Of a stretch of DNA of 64,000 bases, positions 277 through 16,441 are shown piece by piece. Source of the DNA: Candidatus Fraserbacteria bacterium. GTDB lineage: Bacteria; Bipolaricaulota; Bipolaricaulia; RBG-16-55-9; JAJCYT01. Under the pieces are notes generated by a model. That model worked only from the letters and a program-made list of their open reading frames with translations. It had not been told where the DNA came from and made no database searches. The translations under genes and the position numbers were made by a program. Numbering within the stretch: position 1 is the first letter of the stretch; each line of letters starts with the position of its first letter. The DNA lies in the NCBI GenBank assembly GCA_029262795.1, contig JAJCYT010000021.1, forward strand, positions 1-64,000, given 5' to 3'.

Positions 277-3093
277 TTAGCGACCACAGCACTTCTTGAA
301 TTTCTTGCCGCTGCCACAGGAGCAAGGGTCATTGCGACCGACTTTGGGTAAGTCGCGCTTAATTGTTTTGGGAACTTGTTGGGCTTGGGCGGCCATTTGC
401 GCTTGCACTTCTGGAGGAACATTGCCAATAGGAGCTTGGTGGGCTTGGTCATGACTAAAATTTTGGGGATTCCAGATTTCGTTCAAGAGATCCAAGTCAC
501 TCTTCTCAATGGTCAGCTTGAAGATACAATCGGTAACTTCTTCTTGGATAGCAGAGAGAAGTTCATCAAACAAATGGTAGCCTTCTCGTTTATATTCTAT
601 TTTTGGGTCTTTTTGCCCCATAGCGACCAAGTTAATGCCTGACTTTAGCACATCCATAGCATAGAGGTGATCTTTCCATTTAGAGTCGATGTTACTCAAA
701 AGAAGATAGCTTTCTAGCTCTCTCATGGCTTCGCTACTCATTTCTTTCTCTCGTTTATCGTACTCTTTTTTTGTTGCATCCAGAAGTATTTCTTGCACTT
801 CTTTGTAGTTTTTTCCTTCGAGTTCTTGCGGTTTTTTATGGATAAGAAACTTGCTTGCGAGCCAATCACATAGTCCCGAATAATCCCACTCATTTTCCGC
901 ACGATCAGGTAAGTAAATGTCAAGAGCGACATCTATTCTATCTTCGATCATTCGGGTAACGGTTTTTCGCAGTTCCTTGCGATTCAAAACGCTTTGTCGG
1001 TTATCATAGATTAATTTTCTTTGCTCGTTCATCACTTCATCATATTCGAGGAGTGATTTCCGGATATCAAAGTTATATCCTTCGACGCGTTTCTGGGCTT
1101 TTCCAATACCTCGGTTTAGCATGGGGTGACGGATATCTTGTCCCTCTTGCATTCCCATACCTTGCATGAGTTTAATCATGGCAGGAGGAGCGAATTTTCT
1201 CAGGAGGTCATCTTCAAAAGAGAGAAAAAAGCGAGAGCTCCCGGGATCTCCTTGGCGTCCACAACGTCCTCTTAGTTGGTTATCAATTCGGCGAGAATCA
1301 TGTCGTTCTGTTCCGAGAACATGTAGTCCTCCAAGACTTTGAACGGACTCGCATAGTTGGACAGGAGACATTTGGACTTCCTCCCAGTAGTCTTCCAGTT
1401 TGCTTTTGATTTCATCTAAGCTAAGTTCTTCTAGCGACTTCTTCATCGGCTGATCTTTCAAGAAAACCTTTGCCCAGTGTTGGTAAAGTTTTTCTTCGAA
1501 TTGAGAATCGTCTAATGATAATTTCTTGGGAGCAAGTCGATTCTCTTTCCAGTGATCTAAGAGCTGCTTCTTGGTGAAAGTCCCCAGTTTAATATCAGTA
1601 CCACGACCTGCCATGTTGGTTGCTACAGTTACTGCTCCTAAGTGCCCCGCTTTGGCCACAACCCCCGCTTCTTTTTCATGGTACTTCGCATTCAAAACTT
1701 GATGAGGAATTTCTCGAGCAGTGAGTATTTTTGAAATTAGCTCTGATTTTTCTACCGTAATCGTACCGACGAGCACAGGTCGGCCACATCGGTGGTAAAG
1801 AGTTATTTCTTGAGCGATCGCCTGATATTTTTCGGAGTCCGTTCCATAAATAGCGTCATCGTGAGAGAGACGTTTGAGAGGACGATTTGTCGGAACACAA
1901 AGAACATCTAGGTTGTAAATTTTATCAAATTCACCAGCTTCAGTTACCGCAGTACCAGTCATACCAGAGAGTTTATTGAAAAGGCGGAAGTAATTTTGAA
2001 AAGTGATGCTGGCCAAAGTTTGGTTTTCTTCTCGAATTTTTAGTTTTTCTTTGGCTTCTATGGCTTGATGAAGCCCATCACTCCAGCGTCTTCCGGGTTG
2101 AGGTCGTCCGGTGTGTTCATCAATGATGACAATCTGGCCTTCCTTTACCATGTATTCTTTGTCATTTTTAAAGAACTCTTGAGCTCGGAGAGCCTGGCTA
2201 ATATGGTGAGGCCAAACCATATTTTTTCCCTTATAGAAGGAATCTACTCCTATTAATTTCTCGGCATACTCGATACCTTCTTCTGTTAAAAGAGCCAATT
2301 GTTCTTTTTCTTTTAATTCGAAGTGAACCCCTTCTTTGAGTTTTTTTACTAGGCCGCAAGCAGTGTAGTAGCGATCTGTAGATTCTTCTGCGGGACCGGC
2401 GATGATTAAAGGGGTTCGGGCTTCGTCGATAAGTACTGAGTCAACCTCGTCAATAATGGCGTAGTTTAGAACACGTTGGCATTGCTCTTCGCGCGACATT
2501 TTCATGTTGTCGCGAAGATAGTCAAAACCGTATTCATTATTGGTTCCGTAAGTGATATCACAACGGTATTGGCGTAATCTCTCTTGAGGAAACATTTCTG
2601 ATTGAATACACCCAACGGTAAGACCCAAAAATTCAAAGATAGGTCTCATCCAGTCGCAGTCACGCTGCGCAAGATAGTCATTTACTGTTACAACTGCAAC
2701 GTGACCTTGGAGTGCGTTGAGATAGGCTGGACAAGTTGAAACGAGGGTCTTTCCTTCCCCGGTTGTCATTTCTGCAATTTTCCCTTGGTGGAGAACCATT
2801 CCACCGATCATTTGCACGTCAAAGTGACGCATTCCTAGAACTCTCCGAGAAGTTTCTCGGACAACGGCAAATGCTTCTGGCAATATTTTGTCTAAGGTTT
2901 CCCCTTTTCCTAAACGATCTTTAAATTCATTTGTCTTTTCTTTTAGTTGCTTGTCGGAAAGCTCTCTCAGCCCTCCCTCTAAACTATTAATTTTCTCTAC
3001 GACAGGTAAAGTATCTTTCAAGGAACGATCGTTGTGAGAACCAAAGACTTTAACCAAACCTTTGACAAATACTTCTCCGACTCTATCCATCAT
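277..3093 (-). CDS. secA: Preprotein translocase ATPase SecA
   Basis: SecA is the ATPase motor that drives unfolded preproteins through the SecYEG channel. The 938-residue product carries the family in full: Walker A GEGKT at residues 112-116, a Walker B/DEAD-like stretch DEVDSVLIDEARTPL near residue 215, the MAGRGTDIKLG helicase motif, the GTERHDSRRIDNQLRGR motif and a C-terminal zinc-binding SEC-C tail (CSCGSGKKFKKCC). The segment between the MAGRGTD motif and the GTERH motif is long and charged. The start is supported by AAAGGAG upstream of two adjacent ATG codons; the first is used here. It is transcribed alone on the minus strand, and the 272-bp gap upstream presumably holds its promoter. 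Confidence 0.98.
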   Translation of the reverse strand: MMDRVGEVFVKGLVKVFGSHNDRSLKDTLPVVEKINSLEGGLRELSDKQLKEKTNEFKDRLGKGETLDKILPEAFAVVRETSRRVLGMRHFDVQMIGGMVLHQGKIAEMTTGEGKTLVSTCPAYLNALQGHVAVVTVNDYLAQRDCDWMRPIFEFLGLTVGCIQSEMFPQERLRQYRCDITYGTNNEYGFDYLRDNMKMSREEQCQRVLNYAIIDEVDSVLIDEARTPLIIAGPAEESTDRYYTACGLVKKLKEGVHFELKEKEQLALLTEEGIEYAEKLIGVDSFYKGKNMVWPHHISQALRAQEFFKNDKEYMVKEGQIVIIDEHTGRPQPGRRWSDGLHQAIEAKEKLKIREENQTLASITFQNYFRLFNKLSGMTGTAVTEAGEFDKIYNLDVLCVPTNRPLKRLSHDDAIYGTDSEKYQAIAQEITLYHRCGRPVLVGTITVEKSELISKILTAREIPHQVLNAKYHEKEAGVVAKAGHLGAVTVATNMAGRGTDIKLGTFTKKQLLDHWKENRLAPKKLSLDDSQFEEKLYQHWAKVFLKDQPMKKSLEELSLDEIKSKLEDYWEEVQMSPVQLCESVQSLGGLHVLGTERHDSRRIDNQLRGRCGRQGDPGSSRFFLSFEDDLLRKFAPPAMIKLMQGMGMQEGQDIRHPMLNRGIGKAQKRVEGYNFDIRKSLLEYDEVMNEQRKLIYDNRQSVLNRKELRKTVTRMIEDRIDVALDIYLPDRAENEWDYSGLCDWLASKFLIHKKPQELEGKNYKEVQEILLDATKKEYDKREKEMSSEAMRELESYLLLSNIDSKWKDHLYAMDVLKSGINLVAMGQKDPKIEYKREGYHLFDELLSAIQEEVTDCIFKLTIEKSDLDLLNEIWNPQNFSHDQAHQAPIGNVPPEVQAQMAAQAQQVPKTIKRDLPKVGRNDPCSCGSGKKFKKCCGR

Positions 3094-3365
3094 AACAAGC
3101 GTCTCCTTTATTCGGCTGGCATAATATGTTGTTTTGCTTTTACCAGGCCAATTTGACAGACTTATTATGAAGTCTGTTTACTAAAATATTCTCCGTTTAG
3201 ACGCTTACAACATGGATAACTGGTAGCCAGACGCCTTTTCGGAAATTCAAAATTATTTAAACTATCTCAATATATATTCTTTTTCTCTTCAAGAATGATG
3301 CCAAAAAACAGATACACCAAATTTTTTTTGATAAATTTGATTTTTCTACTCTGTCAAATATAGAT

Positions 3366-3785
3366 TTAACGAGGAAGGTAGGGAGCAAATTTTTCTAGGA
3401 GAAGGGGCGGTATGGCTATACTTTTCATTTTCCCTTGTTCCAGTAGGCAGCAAACCATTTTAGAAGTTCCATGAGCAATGGCTTCCTCTTCAAGCAAAAT
3501 ATCTACAGTATAGGTAAGTGATTTGGCTCCCACCTTCGTAATAGTTAAAACTAGATCTACTTCATCTTCAAAACGTATAGGACGTTTGTACTCGAAAGAA
3601 CAGGAAACTCTTGGCCAAGAGAGCATTGCTTCATTGAAAGGCATATAAACAGACAGACCAAGAGAGCGAAAAAAGGCATGTTCGACAACTTCCATATAAC
3701 GAAAATAGTTACTAAAGTGAACGATTCCAGCCATATCTGTCTCAGCAAACTCTGCTCTTTTACTAACTCTAAACTTTGAAGTCAC
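3366..3785 (-). CDS. YbgC/FadM-like acyl-CoA thioesterase (hotdog fold)
   Basis: This 139-residue product matches the single-hotdog 4HBT thioesterase family. Near the N-terminus is the active-site pattern ETDMAGIVHFSNYFRYME, with the Asp corresponding to the catalytic residue of YbgC. Such enzymes hydrolyse acyl-CoA thioesters in the cytoplasm; the substrate cannot be told from sequence. The start is GTG, and it overlaps the stop of the upstream repeat-protein gene in a GTGA arrangement, so the two are translationally coupled. Length is normal for the family. Confidence 0.85.
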   Translation of the reverse strand: MTSKFRVSKRAEFAETDMAGIVHFSNYFRYMEVVEHAFFRSLGLSVYMPFNEAMLSWPRVSCSFEYKRPIRFEDEVDLVLTITKVGAKSLTYTVDILLEEEAIAHGTSKMVCCLLEQGKMKSIAIPPLLLEKFAPYLPR

Positions 3786-4555
3786 TTAGGATTCCTTAAT
3801 TGCAAACTTTCTTTTTCTTTGTTTAACTGGCCTAAGGCCGTTTGAGAGACATAACTATCTAAATCATTGGCTAATTTTTTTAGTACCTCTAGAGGTGTAT
3901 TTTTATTTTTTGCGACAGCCCTACGAATGCCAGGTTCATCACTTTGTGCTAAGTCTGCTAGCTCTGTAGTGGACGTTTTTAAATGGCGAGCTTTTGCTAT
4001 TCCTTGAATAATGGGATCTTGGTCTACTAGTAAAAAATCGAGAACTTCAGACGAAGCTGTCGGGTTTTCTACAATAATGGATCGAATTCTCCTTTTTCTA
4101 TCCTGAGCTAAAGTTTTCAGTAAATCTAGAGAGATACCTGGATTTGCCGCTACTTCCTCTCGAATTTCAACATCTTCTTGAAAAGCTAGCTTATCAAGGA
4201 TAGTTGTAGGAGTTTGCGGGTTGCGAGCAAGGGCCCACCTAACAGCAAAATCAGTATCTTGGGCAAGAGCTTGCAGAGTTCTTTGACTGACATTTGGATG
4301 ACTTGCTATCAGTTGTCGAACAAATGGATCTTGCTCCGTTTGCAAAAGAAGAAAGAGTTCCTGATCGAGACTTTTTTCATTGGATGCAATTTCTACAGAG
4401 TCGGCTCTTTTTTCCTCTTTTTTCAGAGTATCTGTACTTACATAGCCATTACCTGTAACAAATTTATATAAGATGGGGTATTTCGAATAAACTTGGCAGA
4501 TCAAAATACCCAAAGCTATGATTAAGATAAAGGATGATATCTTTTTTCGATCCAT
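3782..4555 (-). CDS. Membrane-anchored leucine-rich-repeat-variant (LRV) protein
   Basis: This 257-residue protein has an N-terminal hydrophobic segment (SFILIIALGILICQVY, about residues 7-22) followed by an acidic linker. About six alpha-helical repeats of roughly 24 residues then follow, with the pattern D..VR..IA.NP..P...L..LA. This is the LRV/HEAT-like solenoid, a protein-interaction scaffold rather than an enzyme. The anchor predicts that the repeats face the periplasm. The gene overlaps the thioesterase downstream and ends 6 bases from the beta-propeller gene upstream, so the three look like one operon. The binding partner is unknown. Confidence 0.75.
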   Translation of the reverse strand: MDRKKISSFILIIALGILICQVYSKYPILYKFVTGNGYVSTDTLKKEEKRADSVEIASNEKSLDQELFLLLQTEQDPFVRQLIASHPNVSQRTLQALAQDTDFAVRWALARNPQTPTTILDKLAFQEDVEIREEVAANPGISLDLLKTLAQDRKRRIRSIIVENPTASSEVLDFLLVDQDPIIQGIAKARHLKTSTTELADLAQSDEPGIRRAVAKNKNTPLEVLKKLANDLDSYVSQTALGQLNKEKESLQLRNPK

Positions 4556-8077: not shown

Positions 8078-10348
8078 TTATCGTCGCTTAGAACGCTCAA
8101 AGTTTCTTTCTGGTCGATCGCGGTCTGGTCGGTCACTGCGTTCTGGTCGGTCACTGCGTTCTGGTCGATCACTGCGTTCTGGTCGATCGCTGCGTTCTGG
8201 TCGATCGCTATCCCCTGCTCGGTCAACGGCTCGTTTACTTAGTTTAATGCGGTTTTGATCATCGACGGCCAAAACTTTTACAGAAATGGTTTCACCGATC
8301 TTAACCACATCACTCACATTTTGAACATAGTTTTTCTCTAGTTCTGAAACGTGAACTAAGCCTTCTAGGCCAGGAGCTATTTCAACAAAAGCGCCAAAAT
8401 CTTTTACGGCAGTTACCTTACCATCGTAAATTTTACCAACTTTAACCTCTTCTGTTAATCTTTCGATCATTTCTTGAGCTTTTTGAGCCCCTTCTTGGTT
8501 AACACTGTAGATTGTGATGGTTCCATCGTCTTCTACATCGAGTTGGGCTTTGGTTGTTTGCTGGATATTGCGGATAGATTTTCCTCCAGGTCCAATCACT
8601 ACGGATATTTTATCTTGAGGAACTTTTATCTTAACAATGCGAGGCGCATAAGCTGAAATTTCTTTACGAGGGCGATCTAAAGCCAGCATCATTTGACGAA
8701 GAATGTGAATACGACCTTCTTTTGCTTGCTCAAGAGCCTTGGCCAAAATATCACGGCTAATCCCGTCGATTTTGATGTCCATTTGAAGAGCAGTTACTCC
8801 TCGTTGGCTTCCTGCGACTTTGAAGTCCATATCTCCAAACTTATCTTCGTCTCCTAAGATGTCGGAAAGGATGTAGAAATTATCCCCATCTTTAACTAAT
8901 CCCATAGCAATCCCGCCTACGGGCTTCTTGATAGGAACTCCCGCATCCATCAATGCTAATGTTCCCCCACTTACAGCAGCCATAGAACTGGAGCCATTAG
9001 AAGCTAAAGTTTCGGAAACGATTCGGATGGTGTAGGGAAATCGAGTTACTTCTGGAGTAACCATTTGGAGAGCACTTTCGGCTAAATTTCCGTGTCCGAT
9101 TTCACGGCGAGAAACCCCTCGTAAAGGACGTACTTCTCCTACAGAAAAAGGAGGAAAATTATAGTGCAAGATAAATTTCTTTTTATACTCCTCTGCTAAG
9201 CCATCGACAATTTGCTCATCTCGTGAAGTTCCTAAGGTGGCGGTAACCAACGCTTGAGTTTCTCCTCTTGTGAAGAGAGCAGAGCCGTGAACACGAGGTA
9301 GTAATCCGACTTCGCAGTTAATAGGACGAATGTCTTTTAATCCTCGTCCATCTATTCTTTTATTTTTAGCAATCATTTCCTGGAAAATTTCTTTTTGGAC
9401 TTTTTCATATCCGGCCCGAAGATGTTTTTCGTTTAAAGCTTCTTCTTTGGCTTTTTCTTTGGCTTTGGTTTTGGCTTTGACTTTGGCTTTTTCATCTGTT
9501 TCGGTAAGATACTTTTCTTTTAGTTGCTTCCAGATTTCTTTATTTTTTAAGCTTCGATCTTGTTTTCTTTTAACCTGAAGCCCTTCAGCGATAAGATTTC
9601 GATCTTCTTTGTTATTTAGTATTTTGTAAGCTTTGTCTCCCATGGAAGACACTTGAGGAAGATCTTTTTTCTGAACACCAGATTTCTCGACAATTTCTTT
9701 CACTAACTCGACAATTTCTTTTACCTGTTCATGTCCCCACAGAATAGCATCAATAACATCAGATTCTTTTGCTTCATTGGCTGATCCTTCAACCATGACA
9801 ACAGCCTTTTCTGTTCCTGAAACAACGATTTCGATGTCGCTTTCTTCAAGTTGGCTGTAAGTGGGATTTAAAATGAGTTTGCCGTCGATGCGTCCCACTC
9901 GAACTGTACCAGTCGGCCCGGTAATAGGAATACCTGCCAAACATACCGCCGCAGACGCCCCTACCATAGCAGCAATATCAGGATTATTTTGCTGATCAGC
10001 AGAAAGAACCTGTGCCATGACTTGTACTTCGGATGAGTATCCTTTGGGAAAAAGTGGTCGCAATGGGCGATCAATCAAACGCATAGTCAAGATTTCTTTT
10101 GTTGTAGGGCGTCCTTCTCGTTTGAAAAATCCACCAGGAAACTTTCCTGCAGCAAAAGTTTTTTCTCTATATTCTATGGTTAGAGGAAGAAAACCTCTAT
10201 CTTCTTCTAGCTCTGCCGTCACTACCGTAACAAGGACAGCGGCATCATCGTATCGGACTAAGGCTGCACCATCTGCAAGGTTGGCCATGTTGCCTGTCTC
10301 GATGCTTAGCGTATGTCCACCAATTTTTCTTTCTACTTTGAAACTCAC
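8078..10348 (-). CDS. pnp: Polyribonucleotide nucleotidyltransferase (PNPase)
   Basis: PNPase is the phosphorolytic 3'-5' exoribonuclease of RNA decay. The 756-residue protein shows two RNase PH-like cores (GGFFKREGRPTTKEILTMRL in the first; the second contains FPPFSVGEVRPLRG), then a KH domain with VVIGPGGKSIRNI and an S1 domain starting VGKIYDGKVTAVKDFGAFVEI. Two features lengthen it beyond the usual about 700 residues: a Lys/Ala/Glu-rich insert in the linker between the cores (KAKVKAKTKAKEKAKEEA), and a C-terminal tail of RPERSD repeats encoded by an 18-bp tandem repeat (about 8109-8205). It lies directly downstream of rpsO, the classic arrangement. Confidence 0.97.
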   Translation of the reverse strand: MSFKVERKIGGHTLSIETGNMANLADGAALVRYDDAAVLVTVVTAELEEDRGFLPLTIEYREKTFAAGKFPGGFFKREGRPTTKEILTMRLIDRPLRPLFPKGYSSEVQVMAQVLSADQQNNPDIAAMVGASAAVCLAGIPITGPTGTVRVGRIDGKLILNPTYSQLEESDIEIVVSGTEKAVVMVEGSANEAKESDVIDAILWGHEQVKEIVELVKEIVEKSGVQKKDLPQVSSMGDKAYKILNNKEDRNLIAEGLQVKRKQDRSLKNKEIWKQLKEKYLTETDEKAKVKAKTKAKEKAKEEALNEKHLRAGYEKVQKEIFQEMIAKNKRIDGRGLKDIRPINCEVGLLPRVHGSALFTRGETQALVTATLGTSRDEQIVDGLAEEYKKKFILHYNFPPFSVGEVRPLRGVSRREIGHGNLAESALQMVTPEVTRFPYTIRIVSETLASNGSSSMAAVSGGTLALMDAGVPIKKPVGGIAMGLVKDGDNFYILSDILGDEDKFGDMDFKVAGSQRGVTALQMDIKIDGISRDILAKALEQAKEGRIHILRQMMLALDRPRKEISAYAPRIVKIKVPQDKISVVIGPGGKSIRNIQQTTKAQLDVEDDGTITIYSVNQEGAQKAQEMIERLTEEVKVGKIYDGKVTAVKDFGAFVEIAPGLEGLVHVSELEKNYVQNVSDVVKIGETISVKVLAVDDQNRIKLSKRAVDRAGDSDRPERSDRPERSDRPERSDRPERSDRPDRDRPERNFERSKRR

Positions 10349-10446: not shown

Positions 10447-10716
10447 CTACTTCCGAATACCAAGGCTAGCAATGAGCTCTTGGTATCTCTTAACATTTTT
10501 CTTCTTCAAATAGCGAAGAAGAGAAGTACGTTTCCCTACTAGCATCAATAAACCGCGACGAGAAGCAAAGTCCTTACGGTGTATTTTTAAATGATCTGTC
10601 ATGTTCTTAATGCGTGTAGTTAAGATAGCAATTTGAACTTCGGGAGAGCCAGTATCTTGCTCGTGTGTTTTATATTCTTCTATCAACTCTTGTTTTTTTT
10701 CTGCCGTAATGGACAT
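10447..10716 (-). CDS. rpsO: 30S ribosomal protein S15
   Basis: The 89-residue product is a normal-length uS15, a primary binder of the 16S rRNA central domain. Diagnostic stretches are [29 protein letters not shown] and [17 protein letters not shown]. It heads the rpsO-pnp unit. The 237-bp gap between it and the reverse-transcriptase stop should hold its promoter and leader. Confidence 0.98.
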
Positions 10717-10953: not shown

Positions 10954-12159
10954 TTATTTTGGATACTGTTCCCATTGAGGTCGGGCTGAGGTTTTAGGAA
11001 ACTGTATTTTGTGTTTTTCTAAATATTTCTTGTAGGGAATCCATAATCGGTAAGGAATGCGTTGGTAAACCATTTTAATGAAGGCTACTACGCTCTGAAT
11101 TTCCAGTTTCTTTTTGTCATCAAGTTCTTCAGGAGCCAAAAGCGATGCTTGATGAAACATTGTTCGAAAGGCTTCTAGTTTTGGCGATGGAATCCTGATT
11201 TTATCTTTTTCTAGAATTAATCCTGTTACTTCCAGCTTTTGTCCTCTTGTTCTCTCTGCATAAGAGATTTTCTTAGGATTTGCTTGGAAACCACAATCTA
11301 AGATAACTTTTAGAATTTTCTCCCGAAGATCTTCATGTATTGGCATGGGAGATGAAATTGTTATATCGTCGGCATATCTCGTGTACTGATAAACAGAGCC
11401 ATGTTGACTAAGCAAACGATAGAGATTTTTATCTAAAGTTATACAGGCTATATTTAAAAGATAACCAGAAGCAGGACTTCCTTGAGGTAAAGCATTTTGG
11501 TAAGTAGTTAGCTTTACAAGAAGCTCGATGACTTGATCTAGCACTGGATGAGGAATATCACCTCCCAAGTGCTTCAAAGGAATTTTTAAATACCGAACAA
11601 ATAAATGTTTGATTCTGGTCGCATCTACAGAAGGAAAAGCGGATTTTAAATCGACATTAAATATTGCCCGAGCTGTTTTTAAATGTTTCGCAGCATTAGT
11701 AACAATGGAACGTCCTTGGACAAATCCATGAACAGCATTGGAAACTGGTATGCGATACAAAAGACGATCTAGTATTCTTCTTTGGATGTTTTTTAAAACT
11801 GGTTCGGGAGAAGAAATTTCGCGGAAGGAGTAACCTCCCTCTCCCTTAGGTATTTTCCAAACATGATAAGCTTTATCTTGCTCAAGTAAATCCAAAGCTT
11901 TTTTTACATCTTGAGAGGGGACATCTAACCAACTTGCAAGATGCAAAGAGGCTGCATTGACCAACTGTTCAATGTCGTCTCCTGTGAAGACTTGAGGACC
12001 AGGAGTGGGGGGGACAATAGGGCTTCGTTTTTCCGCTCTAACTTGAAAGTCTAGAATAGTGATACCAGTACACTGAGGGCATTGAATACGACTACCGGGA
12101 AATACATCCACTATTTTCAAAGCCGCACTACAATGAGGACATTGAATATCTACAGCCAT
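10954..12159 (-). CDS. Retron-type reverse transcriptase with N-terminal zinc ribbon
   Basis: The 401-residue protein combines an N-terminal MJ0042-like zinc ribbon (CPHC at 7-10 and CPQC at 27-30) with a reverse transcriptase. RT landmarks are the first catalytic Asp in NVDLKSAFPS (D170), LPQGSPAS (224-231) and the YADD box (Y262-D265). Two motifs point specifically to retron RTs: NAxxH (NAAKH, 155-159, after HGFVQGRSIV) and VTGL (311-314). There is no intron maturase or endonuclease domain. RBS AGGA lies about 11 bases before ATG. A structured RNA with its own terminator lies just upstream on the same strand (12345-12695), the position expected for msr-msd. Retrons are anti-phage reverse-transcription systems; no separate effector gene is adjacent, so the zinc ribbon is the only candidate accessory part. 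An orphan group-II-like or Abi-type RT is the alternative. Confidence 0.85.
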   Translation of the reverse strand: MAVDIQCPHCSAALKIVDVFPGSRIQCPQCTGITILDFQVRAEKRSPIVPPTPGPQVFTGDDIEQLVNAASLHLASWLDVPSQDVKKALDLLEQDKAYHVWKIPKGEGGYSFREISSPEPVLKNIQRRILDRLLYRIPVSNAVHGFVQGRSIVTNAAKHLKTARAIFNVDLKSAFPSVDATRIKHLFVRYLKIPLKHLGGDIPHPVLDQVIELLVKLTTYQNALPQGSPASGYLLNIACITLDKNLYRLLSQHGSVYQYTRYADDITISSPMPIHEDLREKILKVILDCGFQANPKKISYAERTRGQKLEVTGLILEKDKIRIPSPKLEAFRTMFHQASLLAPEELDDKKKLEIQSVVAFIKMVYQRIPYRLWIPYKKYLEKHKIQFPKTSARPQWEQYPK

Positions 12160-12183
12160 ACGAAATTATTCCTAATGAAAATG

Positions 12184-12228
12184 TCTAGGCGTATTTAAAA
12201 ATATTTTTTTGGGATGAAAAGCGCCTAA
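12184..12228 (-). promoter_or_regulatory. Leader stem in front of the reverse transcriptase
   Basis: TAGGCG and CGCCTA (12184-12189 and 12223-12228) form a 6-bp stem around an AT-rich loop just upstream of the RT ribosome-binding site. It could modulate RT expression. Apart from this and the two hairpins at 12260-12285 and 12312-12342, I see nothing else in 12160-12344. Confidence 0.35.
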
Positions 12229-12344
12229 AATAAAGAGGGATAATCATGATTTTTGGGAAGTGAGAGCTGATTTAAACACTCTCTAAAAAATAAGAAGAAA
12301 TAACAAAAAGAATTAAGTAAGAAATTTTTGATTTCTTGCTTAAC

Positions 12345-12372
12345 TAAAAAAACGCCCGGATAATCCGGGCGT
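12345..12372 (-). terminator. Rho-independent terminator of the structured RNA
   Basis: ACGCCCGGAT/TCCGGGCGT forms a near-perfect GC stem followed on the minus strand by seven U residues. It separates the structured RNA from the reverse transcriptase start 190 bases further on. A second AT-rich hairpin (12312-12342) follows immediately. The RT must therefore rely on read-through or its own promoter. Confidence 0.85.
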
Positions 12373-12695
12373 GTGCTCATTTCATAACTGCGCGATGAAG
12401 TTTGAGAGGCCTTCAAGTACTACTGCGAACATAGTTGTACATGCCCCCTGCTGAGAGCTCCATTATATGGGCATTAGCAGAGCACACTAGTAGTACGCAT
12501 ACCCGCATTACAGTTCCGGCATAGTCACCGGACACCTGCACGGGGTGGTACCCGTATAGGGGTATATCCTGCTCATCACTTACAGAAAACCTTACCTCTC
12601 CCCATCGGATACCGATGGCTACACGGCAAAGCCGCACGAGGGACACCAACTAAATTGGTTAGGTAGCCAGTTTATAGAGCGAATTTGTTATAAAC
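12345..12695 (-). ncRNA. Dense structured RNA upstream of the RT, candidate msr-msd
   Basis: Read on the minus strand, this non-coding stretch is full of pairing. GTTTATA/TATAAAC (12689-12695 with 12670-12676); GGCTAC/GTAGCC (12663-12668 with 12617-12622) enclosing ACCAA/TTGGT and CGGC/GCCG hairpins; CATCGG/CCGATG (12612-12617 with 12603-12608); TCCGG/CCGGA (12528-12532 with 12515-12519); the 8-bp GTACTACT/AGTAGTAC (12489-12496 with 12417-12424); and long-range GAGAGG/CCTCTC (12595-12600 with 12404-12409). It ends at a textbook terminator (12345-12372). GC is much higher than in flanking DNA. A TAGC sits right after the first domain and before the CATCGG hairpin, as the branch-site context does in retron msr, but I could not find convincing long a1/a2 repeats. 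It did not resemble tmRNA, RNase P or SRP RNA. Confidence 0.6.
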
Positions 12696-12839
12696 TTATT
12701 TTTTCTAAAATATATTTTTTATTTTCATTTTTATATTAGAAGCATAAAAAATAATCTTAGAAGACATTGTTATTTTCACTAAATGCCTTCGACGCAGTTT
12801 ATAAGGAAGCAAAAAGTTTGTCAAGAGAAAAATCAGGAA

Positions 12840-13985: not shown

Positions 13986-14125
13986 TTTAGGGATTCTCTT
14001 TCTCGAATAAAGTTTTTCTTGCTCGGCTATCTTTCTTCATGTATACTCGGCAAATTTACTAGTTTACCTAAGTCTTTTAGTCTAACCAATGGATGGACAA
14101 AACACGGCCCCTGAGAGGAAAATGT

Positions 14126-16441
14126 ATGAGAATTTTGGGTGGTGATGCTCGCGGAATGAAGCTACTGAGTCCTAAAGGAATGAAAACTCGTCCGATGAAT
14201 GCTCGAGTCAAAGAGGCTCTTTTTAATATTTTAGGTAGCTCTATTGAAGATGCTGTTGTTTTAGATCTTTTTGCCGGCAGTGGTTCTTTAGGCCTAGAAG
14301 CTTTATCTAGGGGAGCAAAAGAGTGTCATTTTGTAGAAAGAGGTTCTCATGCTTTACCTGTTTTACAAGCTAACCTAGAGAAGATAGGCTACCAGGACAA
14401 AGGACGAATTATAAAAGCGGACGCTTTTTCTATTAGCCCTCTTCTGGGAGAAAAAAAGTTTGATCTTTTTATTTTAGATCCACCTTATCATTATATTGAT
14501 AAACCCATTAGTCGTCGTAAATTTCTTGAATTTCTAGCTCGTCTTACTCAAAAAAATGCTTCTCGTGATGTTATGATGGTACTGCATTATCGTCACAACA
14601 GTATGTCAGGAGCTCCTTTGCCTGCTGGTTTAGAGCTTGAAAGCCGGCGTGTTTACGGAAGTACAGAACTTATGTTTATCACCCAAAAAGATCATTCCGT
14701 TAAAAAATCTAATCACGGAAAGGACTTAACCTTGTCAAAACTTCGAGAACTCTTTGAGGAAGCTTGGGAGTATAAACTCTCAAATAACCCTATATTAGCA
14801 ACATTTCATGGAGATCATCGCTATAACGACTCTCTTCCCTCTTTGAGCCTAGAGAACTTAGAACGACTAGATCGCCAAGCTCATCATTTTTTAGAAAAAC
14901 TTCATGAATTTTCCCGGGCCGACCTCTCTTCTTCTGAACAAACAAACTATGATATCTTTGAACAGATGCTAAAAGACGAAATTGCGGAATACAAATTTCA
15001 GACTCATCTTATGCCTGTCAGTCAAATGGAGGGGTTTCATGTCTACTTACCTGAGCTAGCAAGTCGAACTCCCTTTCGAGAAGCAGAAGATTATCGTCGA
15101 TACGCAAGACGTTTAGAGGCGGTAGAACAATATTTGGAAGAGCATATCACTTTAATGAGAAAGGGAATGGAGAAAGGTTACACTGTCGTCCGAGGAACCT
15201 TACATCTCTGTGTGGGTTCTATTGAAGCTCAAATTACTGTTGCTGAAAAAACTCCTTTCTTTAAACCTTTTCTTTCTTTTCCAGATCATTTTTCTTCCTC
15301 TTTGCAAGAGGAGCTCAAAGAGCTTGGGAAAAAAGCGATTGATAAAGTTATGACAAATTACAAAAACTTTGCTCAATTTGTGAAAGAAGAGTACACTCCA
15401 GCCGCGAGAGTAGAAACGGCGACTTCTGCTCTTCCCAACGGTAAAGCTTATTACGAGCACTTAGTTCGCCATTTTACGACTCTTTCGATTACTCCTGAGG
15501 AAGTCCACAAAATAGGTCATGATGAAGTAAAACGTCTGCGAGAAGAGATGGAAAATATCATCACCGAGCTTGATTTTGAAGGAGGCTGGGATGAGTTTAT
15601 GGATTTTTTACGGGAAGACCCTCGTTTTTATTGCGAGACTCCTCATGAATTGATGGCCGAAATTAGTCTAATCATGAAAAAAATGGATGGAGAACTTCCT
15701 CGTCTTTTTAATAAGCTCCCTCGCACTCCTTATGGTATCAAGCCCGTTCCTGAAGCTATTGCTCCTCGTATGCCAAAAGCCTATTATATGCCCTCTGTTG
15801 GGGATGGCACTACGGCAGGTTTCTATTATATAAATACCGACGATTTAAAGAGTCGTCCTCTTTATGAAATGGAAGCTTTATCTTTGCACGAAGCGGTTCC
15901 AGGACATCATCTGCAAATAGCCCTTCAACAAGAACTAGAAAATATCCCGACCTTTCGACGCTTTCACCATGTAACTGCATATATTGAGGGATGGGCTCTT
16001 TACTCAGAACGTTTGGGGCTAGAAGTGGGCTTTTACGAAGACCCTTACCATAACTTTGGTCGTCTCATCTATGAAATTTGGCGAGCCTGTCGCTTGGTTG
16101 TCGATACAGGTCTTCATTATCTCGGATGGACTCGGGAAGAATCCATTGAGTTCATGTCGAAGAACTCTTCTTTAAGTATGAACGATGTTAGTATAGAAGT
16201 GGATCGTTACATTAATCTTCCAGGACAAGCGATATCTTATAAAATGGGCGAGCTCAAAATCACTGCTTTGCGAAAACTGGCAGAAGAAAGCCTTGGGCCA
16301 AAATTTGATATTCGAGAATTCCATGAAGTTCTTTTGGGAGAGGGAGCAATTCCCTTAGAGGTTCTCGAAACTAAAGTCAAAGAGTATATTGAAGATAAAA
16401 TGGAAGACAAAAATAACTCTGAAGAAGGAGAAAAAAGTTAA
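14126..16441 (+). CDS. Fusion of RsmD rRNA methyltransferase and DUF885 metallopeptidase
   Basis: One uninterrupted frame encodes two enzymes. Residues about 1-185 are RsmD, the 16S rRNA guanine-N2 (G966) methyltransferase: MRILGGDARGMKL start, MNARVKEALFNILG, SAM loop LDLFAGSGSLGLEALSRGA and catalytic DPPY. Residues about 195-760 are a DUF885 protein, a zinc metallopeptidase-like family, with HEAVPGHHLQIAL carrying the HExxH-like metal site. The frame is open from 14093, but the ATG at 14126 follows GAGAGGA at good spacing and starts exactly where RsmD proteins do. Both domains look intact. The stop overlaps the ade start (TAATG). The fusion is unusual; a missing stop from sequencing error is possible. 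Confidence 0.85.
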   Translation: MRILGGDARGMKLLSPKGMKTRPMNARVKEALFNILGSSIEDAVVLDLFAGSGSLGLEALSRGAKECHFVERGSHALPVLQANLEKIGYQDKGRIIKADAFSISPLLGEKKFDLFILDPPYHYIDKPISRRKFLEFLARLTQKNASRDVMMVLHYRHNSMSGAPLPAGLELESRRVYGSTELMFITQKDHSVKKSNHGKDLTLSKLRELFEEAWEYKLSNNPILATFHGDHRYNDSLPSLSLENLERLDRQAHHFLEKLHEFSRADLSSSEQTNYDIFEQMLKDEIAEYKFQTHLMPVSQMEGFHVYLPELASRTPFREAEDYRRYARRLEAVEQYLEEHITLMRKGMEKGYTVVRGTLHLCVGSIEAQITVAEKTPFFKPFLSFPDHFSSSLQEELKELGKKAIDKVMTNYKNFAQFVKEEYTPAARVETATSALPNGKAYYEHLVRHFTTLSITPEEVHKIGHDEVKRLREEMENIITELDFEGGWDEFMDFLREDPRFYCETPHELMAEISLIMKKMDGELPRLFNKLPRTPYGIKPVPEAIAPRMPKAYYMPSVGDGTTAGFYYINTDDLKSRPLYEMEALSLHEAVPGHHLQIALQQELENIPTFRRFHHVTAYIEGWALYSERLGLEVGFYEDPYHNFGRLIYEIWRACRLVVDTGLHYLGWTREESIEFMSKNSSLSMNDVSIEVDRYINLPGQAISYKMGELKITALRKLAEESLGPKFDIREFHEVLLGEGAIPLEVLETKVKEYIEDKMEDKNNSEEGEKS

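Follow-up and report, generated by a model that had tools for sequence, protein, structure and literature searches.

A retron-type reverse transcriptase with a built-in zinc ribbon and its own RNA gene, probably a new and domesticated retron lineage

Introduction

Classic retrons combine an msr-msd RNA and a reverse transcriptase (RT) in one cassette, and retrons are tripartite systems whose effector gene is the basis of the 13 types. To our knowledge, nearly all studied retrons are accessory, effector-bearing systems of phage defence. What, then, is a retron-like RT that begins with a zinc ribbon, has a structured RNA gene just upstream and lies beside rpsO and pnp? The 64,000-nucleotide stretch analysed here (the window) carries such a locus, for which the sequence-only reading had offered two alternatives: a new retron type in which the ribbon is the partner, or a diverged RT settled beside housekeeping genes. 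Our results support both together. We consider it likely (probability about 0.8) that the RT and its cognate noncoding RNA (ncRNA) form a new retron-type lineage, in which the RNA is a gene of its own, the RT would prime after the a1 repeat and single-stranded DNA (ssDNA) would be joined to the RNA; the lineage is probably domesticated. This retron-like pair, an RT with an integral zinc-binding domain plus a structured RNA gene, appears previously undescribed: no paper found in the open-access literature describes a retron with a zinc ribbon or places an RT next to rpsO-pnp, although a supplementary table may mention one.

A retron-type RT with an N-terminal zinc ribbon

The protein and its motifs, all on the reverse strand, are as follows.

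10954–12159 (−), retron-type RT with N-terminal zinc ribbon, 401 aa (open reading frame and translation, RVT_1, retron profiles, relatives)
12052–12159 (−), four-Cys zinc ribbon, residues 1–36, with C7, C10, C27 and C30 (invariant residues, AlphaFold2 model)
11683–11697 (−), region X motif NAAKH, residues 155–159 (translation, family alignment)
11365–11376 (−), catalytic YADD, residues 262–265 (Y262, A263, D264 and D265 invariant in the nine-member alignment)
11221–11229 (−), VTG motif opening region Y, residues 311–313 (translation, alignment)

The retron-type RT portion spans residues 72–380 and matches Pfam RVT_1 (3e-18). NAAKH, VTG and YADD, which had been claimed from the letters, were all located in the translation, giving the complete retron signature of NAxxH, VTG and YxDD. 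Among PADLOC profiles, RT_XIII scored best (201 bits, 6.8e-60), with III-A at 186 bits, and the NCBIfam retron St85 model scored 173 bits; the group II maturase model TIGR04416, in comparison, reached 32 bits against a cut-off of 300 and Drt2 46 bits against a cut-off of 390. A grouping with group II intron or Abi RTs had been named as evidence to the contrary, and the scores point the other way, with 121–201 bits for retron profiles and chains versus about 36 bits for the top group II or DRT2 chains. Retrons Ec67 and Ec86 were the top PDB structures both by sequence profile and by fold, the latter from a middling AlphaFold2 model (pLDDT 69, pTM 0.45). By these comparisons of sequence, the window RT belongs to the retron RT group. 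Counting against the retron reading, the N of NAxxH is replaced by G in two of the nine ribbon RTs described below (L207 and L209); VTG becomes ITG in another (L205).

The predicted ribbon proved to be a family trait: its four cysteines, spaced as C7-x2-C10 and C27-x2-C30, are present in all nine RTs, and C7, P8, C10, G22, C27 and C30 are invariant in the alignment. It scores weakly in Pfam when searched alone (E 0.003), no Pfam architecture describes a ribbon-RT, and in the AlphaFold2 model it is well formed, with four strands and a pLDDT of about 80. The ribbon is under strong constraint and is the sole candidate for a partner function.

A structured RNA gene with a retron layout

Upstream of the RT, on the same strand, lies the RNA gene, with these parts.

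12346–12690 (−), independent ncRNA gene, msr-msd-like, with a predicted 5' end (kept beside all nine RTs, covariance model match)
12796–12824 (−), promoter-like site of the RNA, TTGACA-17-TAAACT (sequence scan)
12668–12672 (−), a1 repeat core AACUG (a2 pairing, covariation across 11 RNAs)
12667 (−), candidate priming G directly 3' of a1, in UGGC (retron architecture, invariant G)
12589–12664 (−), conserved msr-like domain with P0 ACCU/AGGU, P1, inner CCUC/GAGG helix, P2 and P3 (26 pairs, covariation)
12395–12588 (−), variable msd-like domain of about 194 nt, predicted template (little sequence common to relatives, similar length, strong hairpins)
12386–12390 (−), a2 repeat CAGUU, preceded by a conserved GCG at 12391–12393 (end pairing, conserved motif in relatives)
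12346–12373 (−), intrinsic terminator of the RNA, with its hairpin at 12372–12352 (terminator scan)

An RNA with its own terminator had been proposed at this position, and the scan recovered the hairpin. Terminator hairpins also occur 3' of a2 in most relatives, and TTGACA-type sites lie 17–24 nt ahead of a1 in four. Across the family, the RNA runs from RAYUG-GCYNCCUA on the 5' side through a hairpin with GGUAUCC or a variant to an AAGGUUU-like end of the conserved domain, followed by the variable domain, YGCGCARU and usually a terminator. The conserved 5' domain measures about 85 nt and the a1-to-a2 core 262–297 nt across ribbon-RT loci; the variable domain takes up 160–210 nt at the nine ribbon RTs, and the msd-like domain 160–264 nt across the relatives compared. 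Our covariance model, R1, matches window positions 12580–12686 at 107.9 bits. No Rfam family matched the RNA above its gathering score, and a permissive search gave chance-level matches only.

The RNA had been described as strongly folded. Its folding energy is only modestly low (z = −2.8 for 12330–12700 (−) and −1.5 for the core), and the claim of structure therefore rests on covariation, which bears it out. The conserved domain forms a five-helix structure in which 97.6% of cells are paired (five sequences, 26 pairs); 12 of the 26 pairs show two-sided changes, a level reached in 0 of 500 shuffles, and pairing falls to 27–47% when partner columns are slid by 1–3. In each of the 11 RNAs, the 5' and 3' ends (a1 and a2) form 4–10 uninterrupted base pairs in a single register, and when partners were swapped among the RNAs, 0 of 100000 permutations reached the observed pairing sum. 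As a separate observation, the opposite strand, 12330–12700 (+), folds better still (z = −4.1, against −2.8 for the RNA).

A conserved msr fold followed by a variable msd, as expected of a retron, was thus found by covariation and by comparison of the variable domains, and by sequence and pairing the succession a1, msr, msd and a2 is the layout of retron RNAs (PMC6868368; PMC8989520). Two features count against the retron reading: the G directly 3' of a1, invariant in all family RNAs, stands in UGGC rather than the usual priming context (T)AGC (PMC6868368), and a terminator-like hairpin separates the RNA from the RT.

RNA and RT occur together in one clade

Nine ribbon RTs were found: that of the window and those of eight Planctomycetota genomes, the latter 46–61% identical to it. 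One of these, a full-length relative in a Planctomycetota metagenome-assembled genome (L011, 56% identical), came from an alignment-based profile scan. Among 392 Planctomycetota genomes searched, the eight ribbon RTs scored 437–606 bits, and other retron RTs remained below 182 bits except in a double-RT genome (G166, 275 bits). A further candidate, L094, was rejected: it aligned from residue 9, lacks the ribbon and belongs to a retron on a phage-like contig.

A maximum-likelihood tree unites the ribbon RTs in one clade (support 96/95), which together with a sister group of double RTs makes up a larger clade (support 100/100), set off by a long branch from all other sampled retrons; being without an outgroup, the tree does not tell basal from nested placement. 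The retrons compared include loci that we assigned, by partner or fusion domain, to types I-A, I-C, III-A, XI, XII and XIII.

Conservation of the RNA next to RT homologues, which had been put forward as a check, held throughout: the same RNA lies upstream on the same strand at all nine ribbon RTs. Searched alone over the 392 genomes, R1 clearly matched seven of the eight genomes with the RT and none that lack it; in the eighth (G266), the RNA was found by a local R1 search (30 bits). Over 97 loci, mostly other retrons, R1 matched ribbon-RT loci only, plus a weak match at L210 (17.9 bits). A contig break divides the RNA of one genome (G208), the two contig ends overlapping by 99 bases. Weak R1 matches on G221, contig C83 of G127 and contig C28 of G000, the window's own assembly, lack the 5' and 3' motifs and were set aside as chance.

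One genome (G190) carries a second complete RNA copy (L242, 5530–5910) that has a1/a2 ends and a terminator of its own; it is flanked by a helicase gene and leuS, with no adjacent RT. This RNA, if functional, would have to be used by the RT in trans.

Genomic position, inheritance and host

Two downstream neighbours of the RT are conserved.

10447–10716 (−), rpsO, ribosomal protein S15 (Pfam, synteny in six loci)
8078–10348 (−), pnp, PNPase (Pfam, synteny in six loci)

Together with dprA, these are the housekeeping neighbours named from the sequence, and Pfam identified all three. The order RNA-RT-rpsO-pnp recurs in six loci (the window, L011, L203, L204, L205 and L206), where mean pairwise identities are similar for the RT (58.9%), S15 (57.9%) and PNPase (61.2%). 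The RT thus diverges at the pace of core genes, and its inheritance looks vertical. Pairwise identities of RT and pnp show no significant correlation (Spearman 0.35, p 0.2), since all pairs are about equally distant; vertical descent is accordingly argued from the conserved gene order, the similar rates and the presence across the class. The RT was found in five of six genomes examined from one class (that of G127), whereas the sixth (G152) is an outlier, with a PNPase of only 46% identity and with pnp apart from rpsO. In three relatives (L207, L208 and L209), the RNA-RT pair lies away from rpsO-pnp with the RNA still beside the RT, and the pair rather than the neighbourhood is therefore the unit.

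The absence of a separate adjacent effector, also suggested earlier, was borne out across the family neighbourhoods: no neighbour family was common to more than one locus pair except the RT, rpsO, pnp and AMMECR1. With no further family widely shared, no effector was identified, and the pair departs from other retrons in this respect; a defence function finds no support here.

We had assumed at first that the host belongs to the phylum of the assembly (G000), and rejected this because the window pnp and rpsO group with planctomycete loci. The window PNPase shares 58–60% identity with these but only 42–48% with PNPases from the order of the assembly, one fragment reaching 50%; the assembly has a second rpsO-pnp on contig C23 (38094–40151), distinct from the window's contig C21, and that copy groups with the order. 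As the two rpsO-pnp loci differ in origin, the assembly is probably a mixed bin; judged from these sequence identities, the window contig is planctomycete-like and probably mis-binned. Neither the RT nor the RNA was found in 99 other genomes of the assembly's phylum, which such mis-binning would explain.

Two minor features were seen nearby. The window PNPase (8078–10348, −) ends in a repetitive charged tail with SDRPER repeats, and that of L011 likewise in an Arg/Asp/Ser-rich tail. At 14093–16441 (+), one 782-aa open reading frame joins an RsmD-like 16S rRNA methyltransferase domain (Cons_hypoth95) to DUF885.

A proposed mechanism and its alternatives

From the family conservation and retron architecture, we propose that the RNA, whose ends pair as a1/a2, is expressed as a gene in its own right. 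The RT would bind the conserved 5' domain (msr) and prime at the conserved G just 3' of a1, and part of the variable 3' domain (msd) would be copied to ssDNA joined to the RNA (msDNA). Going further, the fused ribbon may itself make, in cis, the contact with nucleic acid or protein for which other retrons rely on a separate partner, and the lineage may have domesticated the system as a resident element passed on vertically. Throughout one lineage of Planctomycetota the pair keeps the same neighbours, genes for a ribosomal protein and for RNA decay, which suggests that it has a resident role in the cell and is not a transient element of phage defence; vertical descent and the lack of an effector also speak against a simple defence module that sequesters a toxin. 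A role linked to RNA metabolism, with pnp next to the pair, is possible.

Among studied systems, retron Eco2 (Ec67), a single-gene RT-TOPRIM retron and the top solved structure, shares a fused second domain and the lack of a separate effector gene, but its fused domain is a C-terminal nuclease, whereas that of the window RT is a 36-residue N-terminal ribbon. Vertical inheritance within a lineage has a precedent in the myxobacterial retrons Mx162 and Sa163, which also share a long msd; these differ in forming one cassette with the RT, with no ribbon described and no rpsO-pnp link mentioned (PMC6868368).

The main alternative is that the pair regulates the downstream rpsO-pnp operon, the RT or RNA acting in cis on S15 or PNPase expression or on RNA decay. 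Its position ahead of rpsO-pnp is fixed in six loci, where no more than 24–237 nt separate the RT from rpsO, so co-transcription is plausible; we nevertheless think such regulation unlikely, given the three relatives elsewhere and RT catalytic residues whose retention a purely cis-regulatory role would not require.

Less probable still is a defence relic, a known-type retron (closest to XIII) whose effector genes were lost or displaced, and no new lineage. Of the PADLOC profiles, RT_XIII fits the window RT best and also ranks first by E-value over the nine members, and the type XIII retron of Methylobacterium bullatum (L003) likewise has YADD, NAxxH and VTG. L003, however, has upstream partner genes, which we take to be the HEAT/ARM-like and SWIM-like partners of type XIII. 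Pfam found no such genes in the window, whose RT has the fused ribbon instead and falls on a long stem in the separate 100/100 clade, with the Methylobacterium type-XIII-like RT elsewhere. Effector-less 'lone' retron RTs are known (PMC12548924), but a ribbon, active site and RNA that stay intact in nine lineages without an effector are not decaying.

It is very improbable that the RNA is an independent small RNA that neighbours the RT by chance in a conserved synteny block: the three pairs away from rpsO-pnp keep the RNA beside the RT, both occur in the same genomes among the 392, and a diverged RNA copy precedes the double-RT genes of L210, although the RNA comes with a promoter-like site and a terminator of its own and one genome holds a copy lacking an adjacent RT. 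Another defence RT, making concatemeric cDNA or a hidden open reading frame from the RNA, is hardly credible, for while DRT2 and DRT9 likewise pair an RT with a structured ncRNA and no separate effector, their similarity to the window RT is much weaker (46 bits for the DRT2 profile versus 173 for the retron model), their RNA architecture differs, the a1/a2 pairing, VTG and NAxxH are retron features, and no stop-free concatemer frame is common to the RNAs, which led us to reject a DRT2-like concatemer product.

A new retron-type lineage thus remains our preferred reading, and an effector-less one that keeps RT, RNA and position at the rate of ribosomal genes makes a non-defence role of retrons directly testable. 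Its unusual built-in domain, and an RNA that seemingly works from a separate gene, could make the pair useful for ssDNA production. We offer a fuller version of this reading only tentatively, in which the retron would have a housekeeping role: its RT, part of the core gene set of a planctomycete class and inherited vertically there, would make RNA-linked ssDNA from at least one RNA gene, some in trans (as in G190), would rely on the ribbon in place of an effector, would work together with the neighbouring PNPase and S15 functions and would have a tandem double-RT sister in another phylum.

Double RTs of the sister group

The sister group includes fusions of about 720 aa (L211/L012, L261, L262, L255 and L263) that join two tandem retron-type RT domains (YIDD/YLDD plus YADD). 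Both active sites are kept, and the fusion occurs in all five genomes examined of one phylum (that of G101). The R1 search found no R1-type RNA above chance beside the fused double RTs; L210 is the exception among double-RT loci. There (contig C1089 of G166, 1503–3843), two adjacent, separate sister-group RT genes follow a diverged RNA copy, the one matched by R1 at 17.9 bits, which has matching a1/a2 ends and a terminator.
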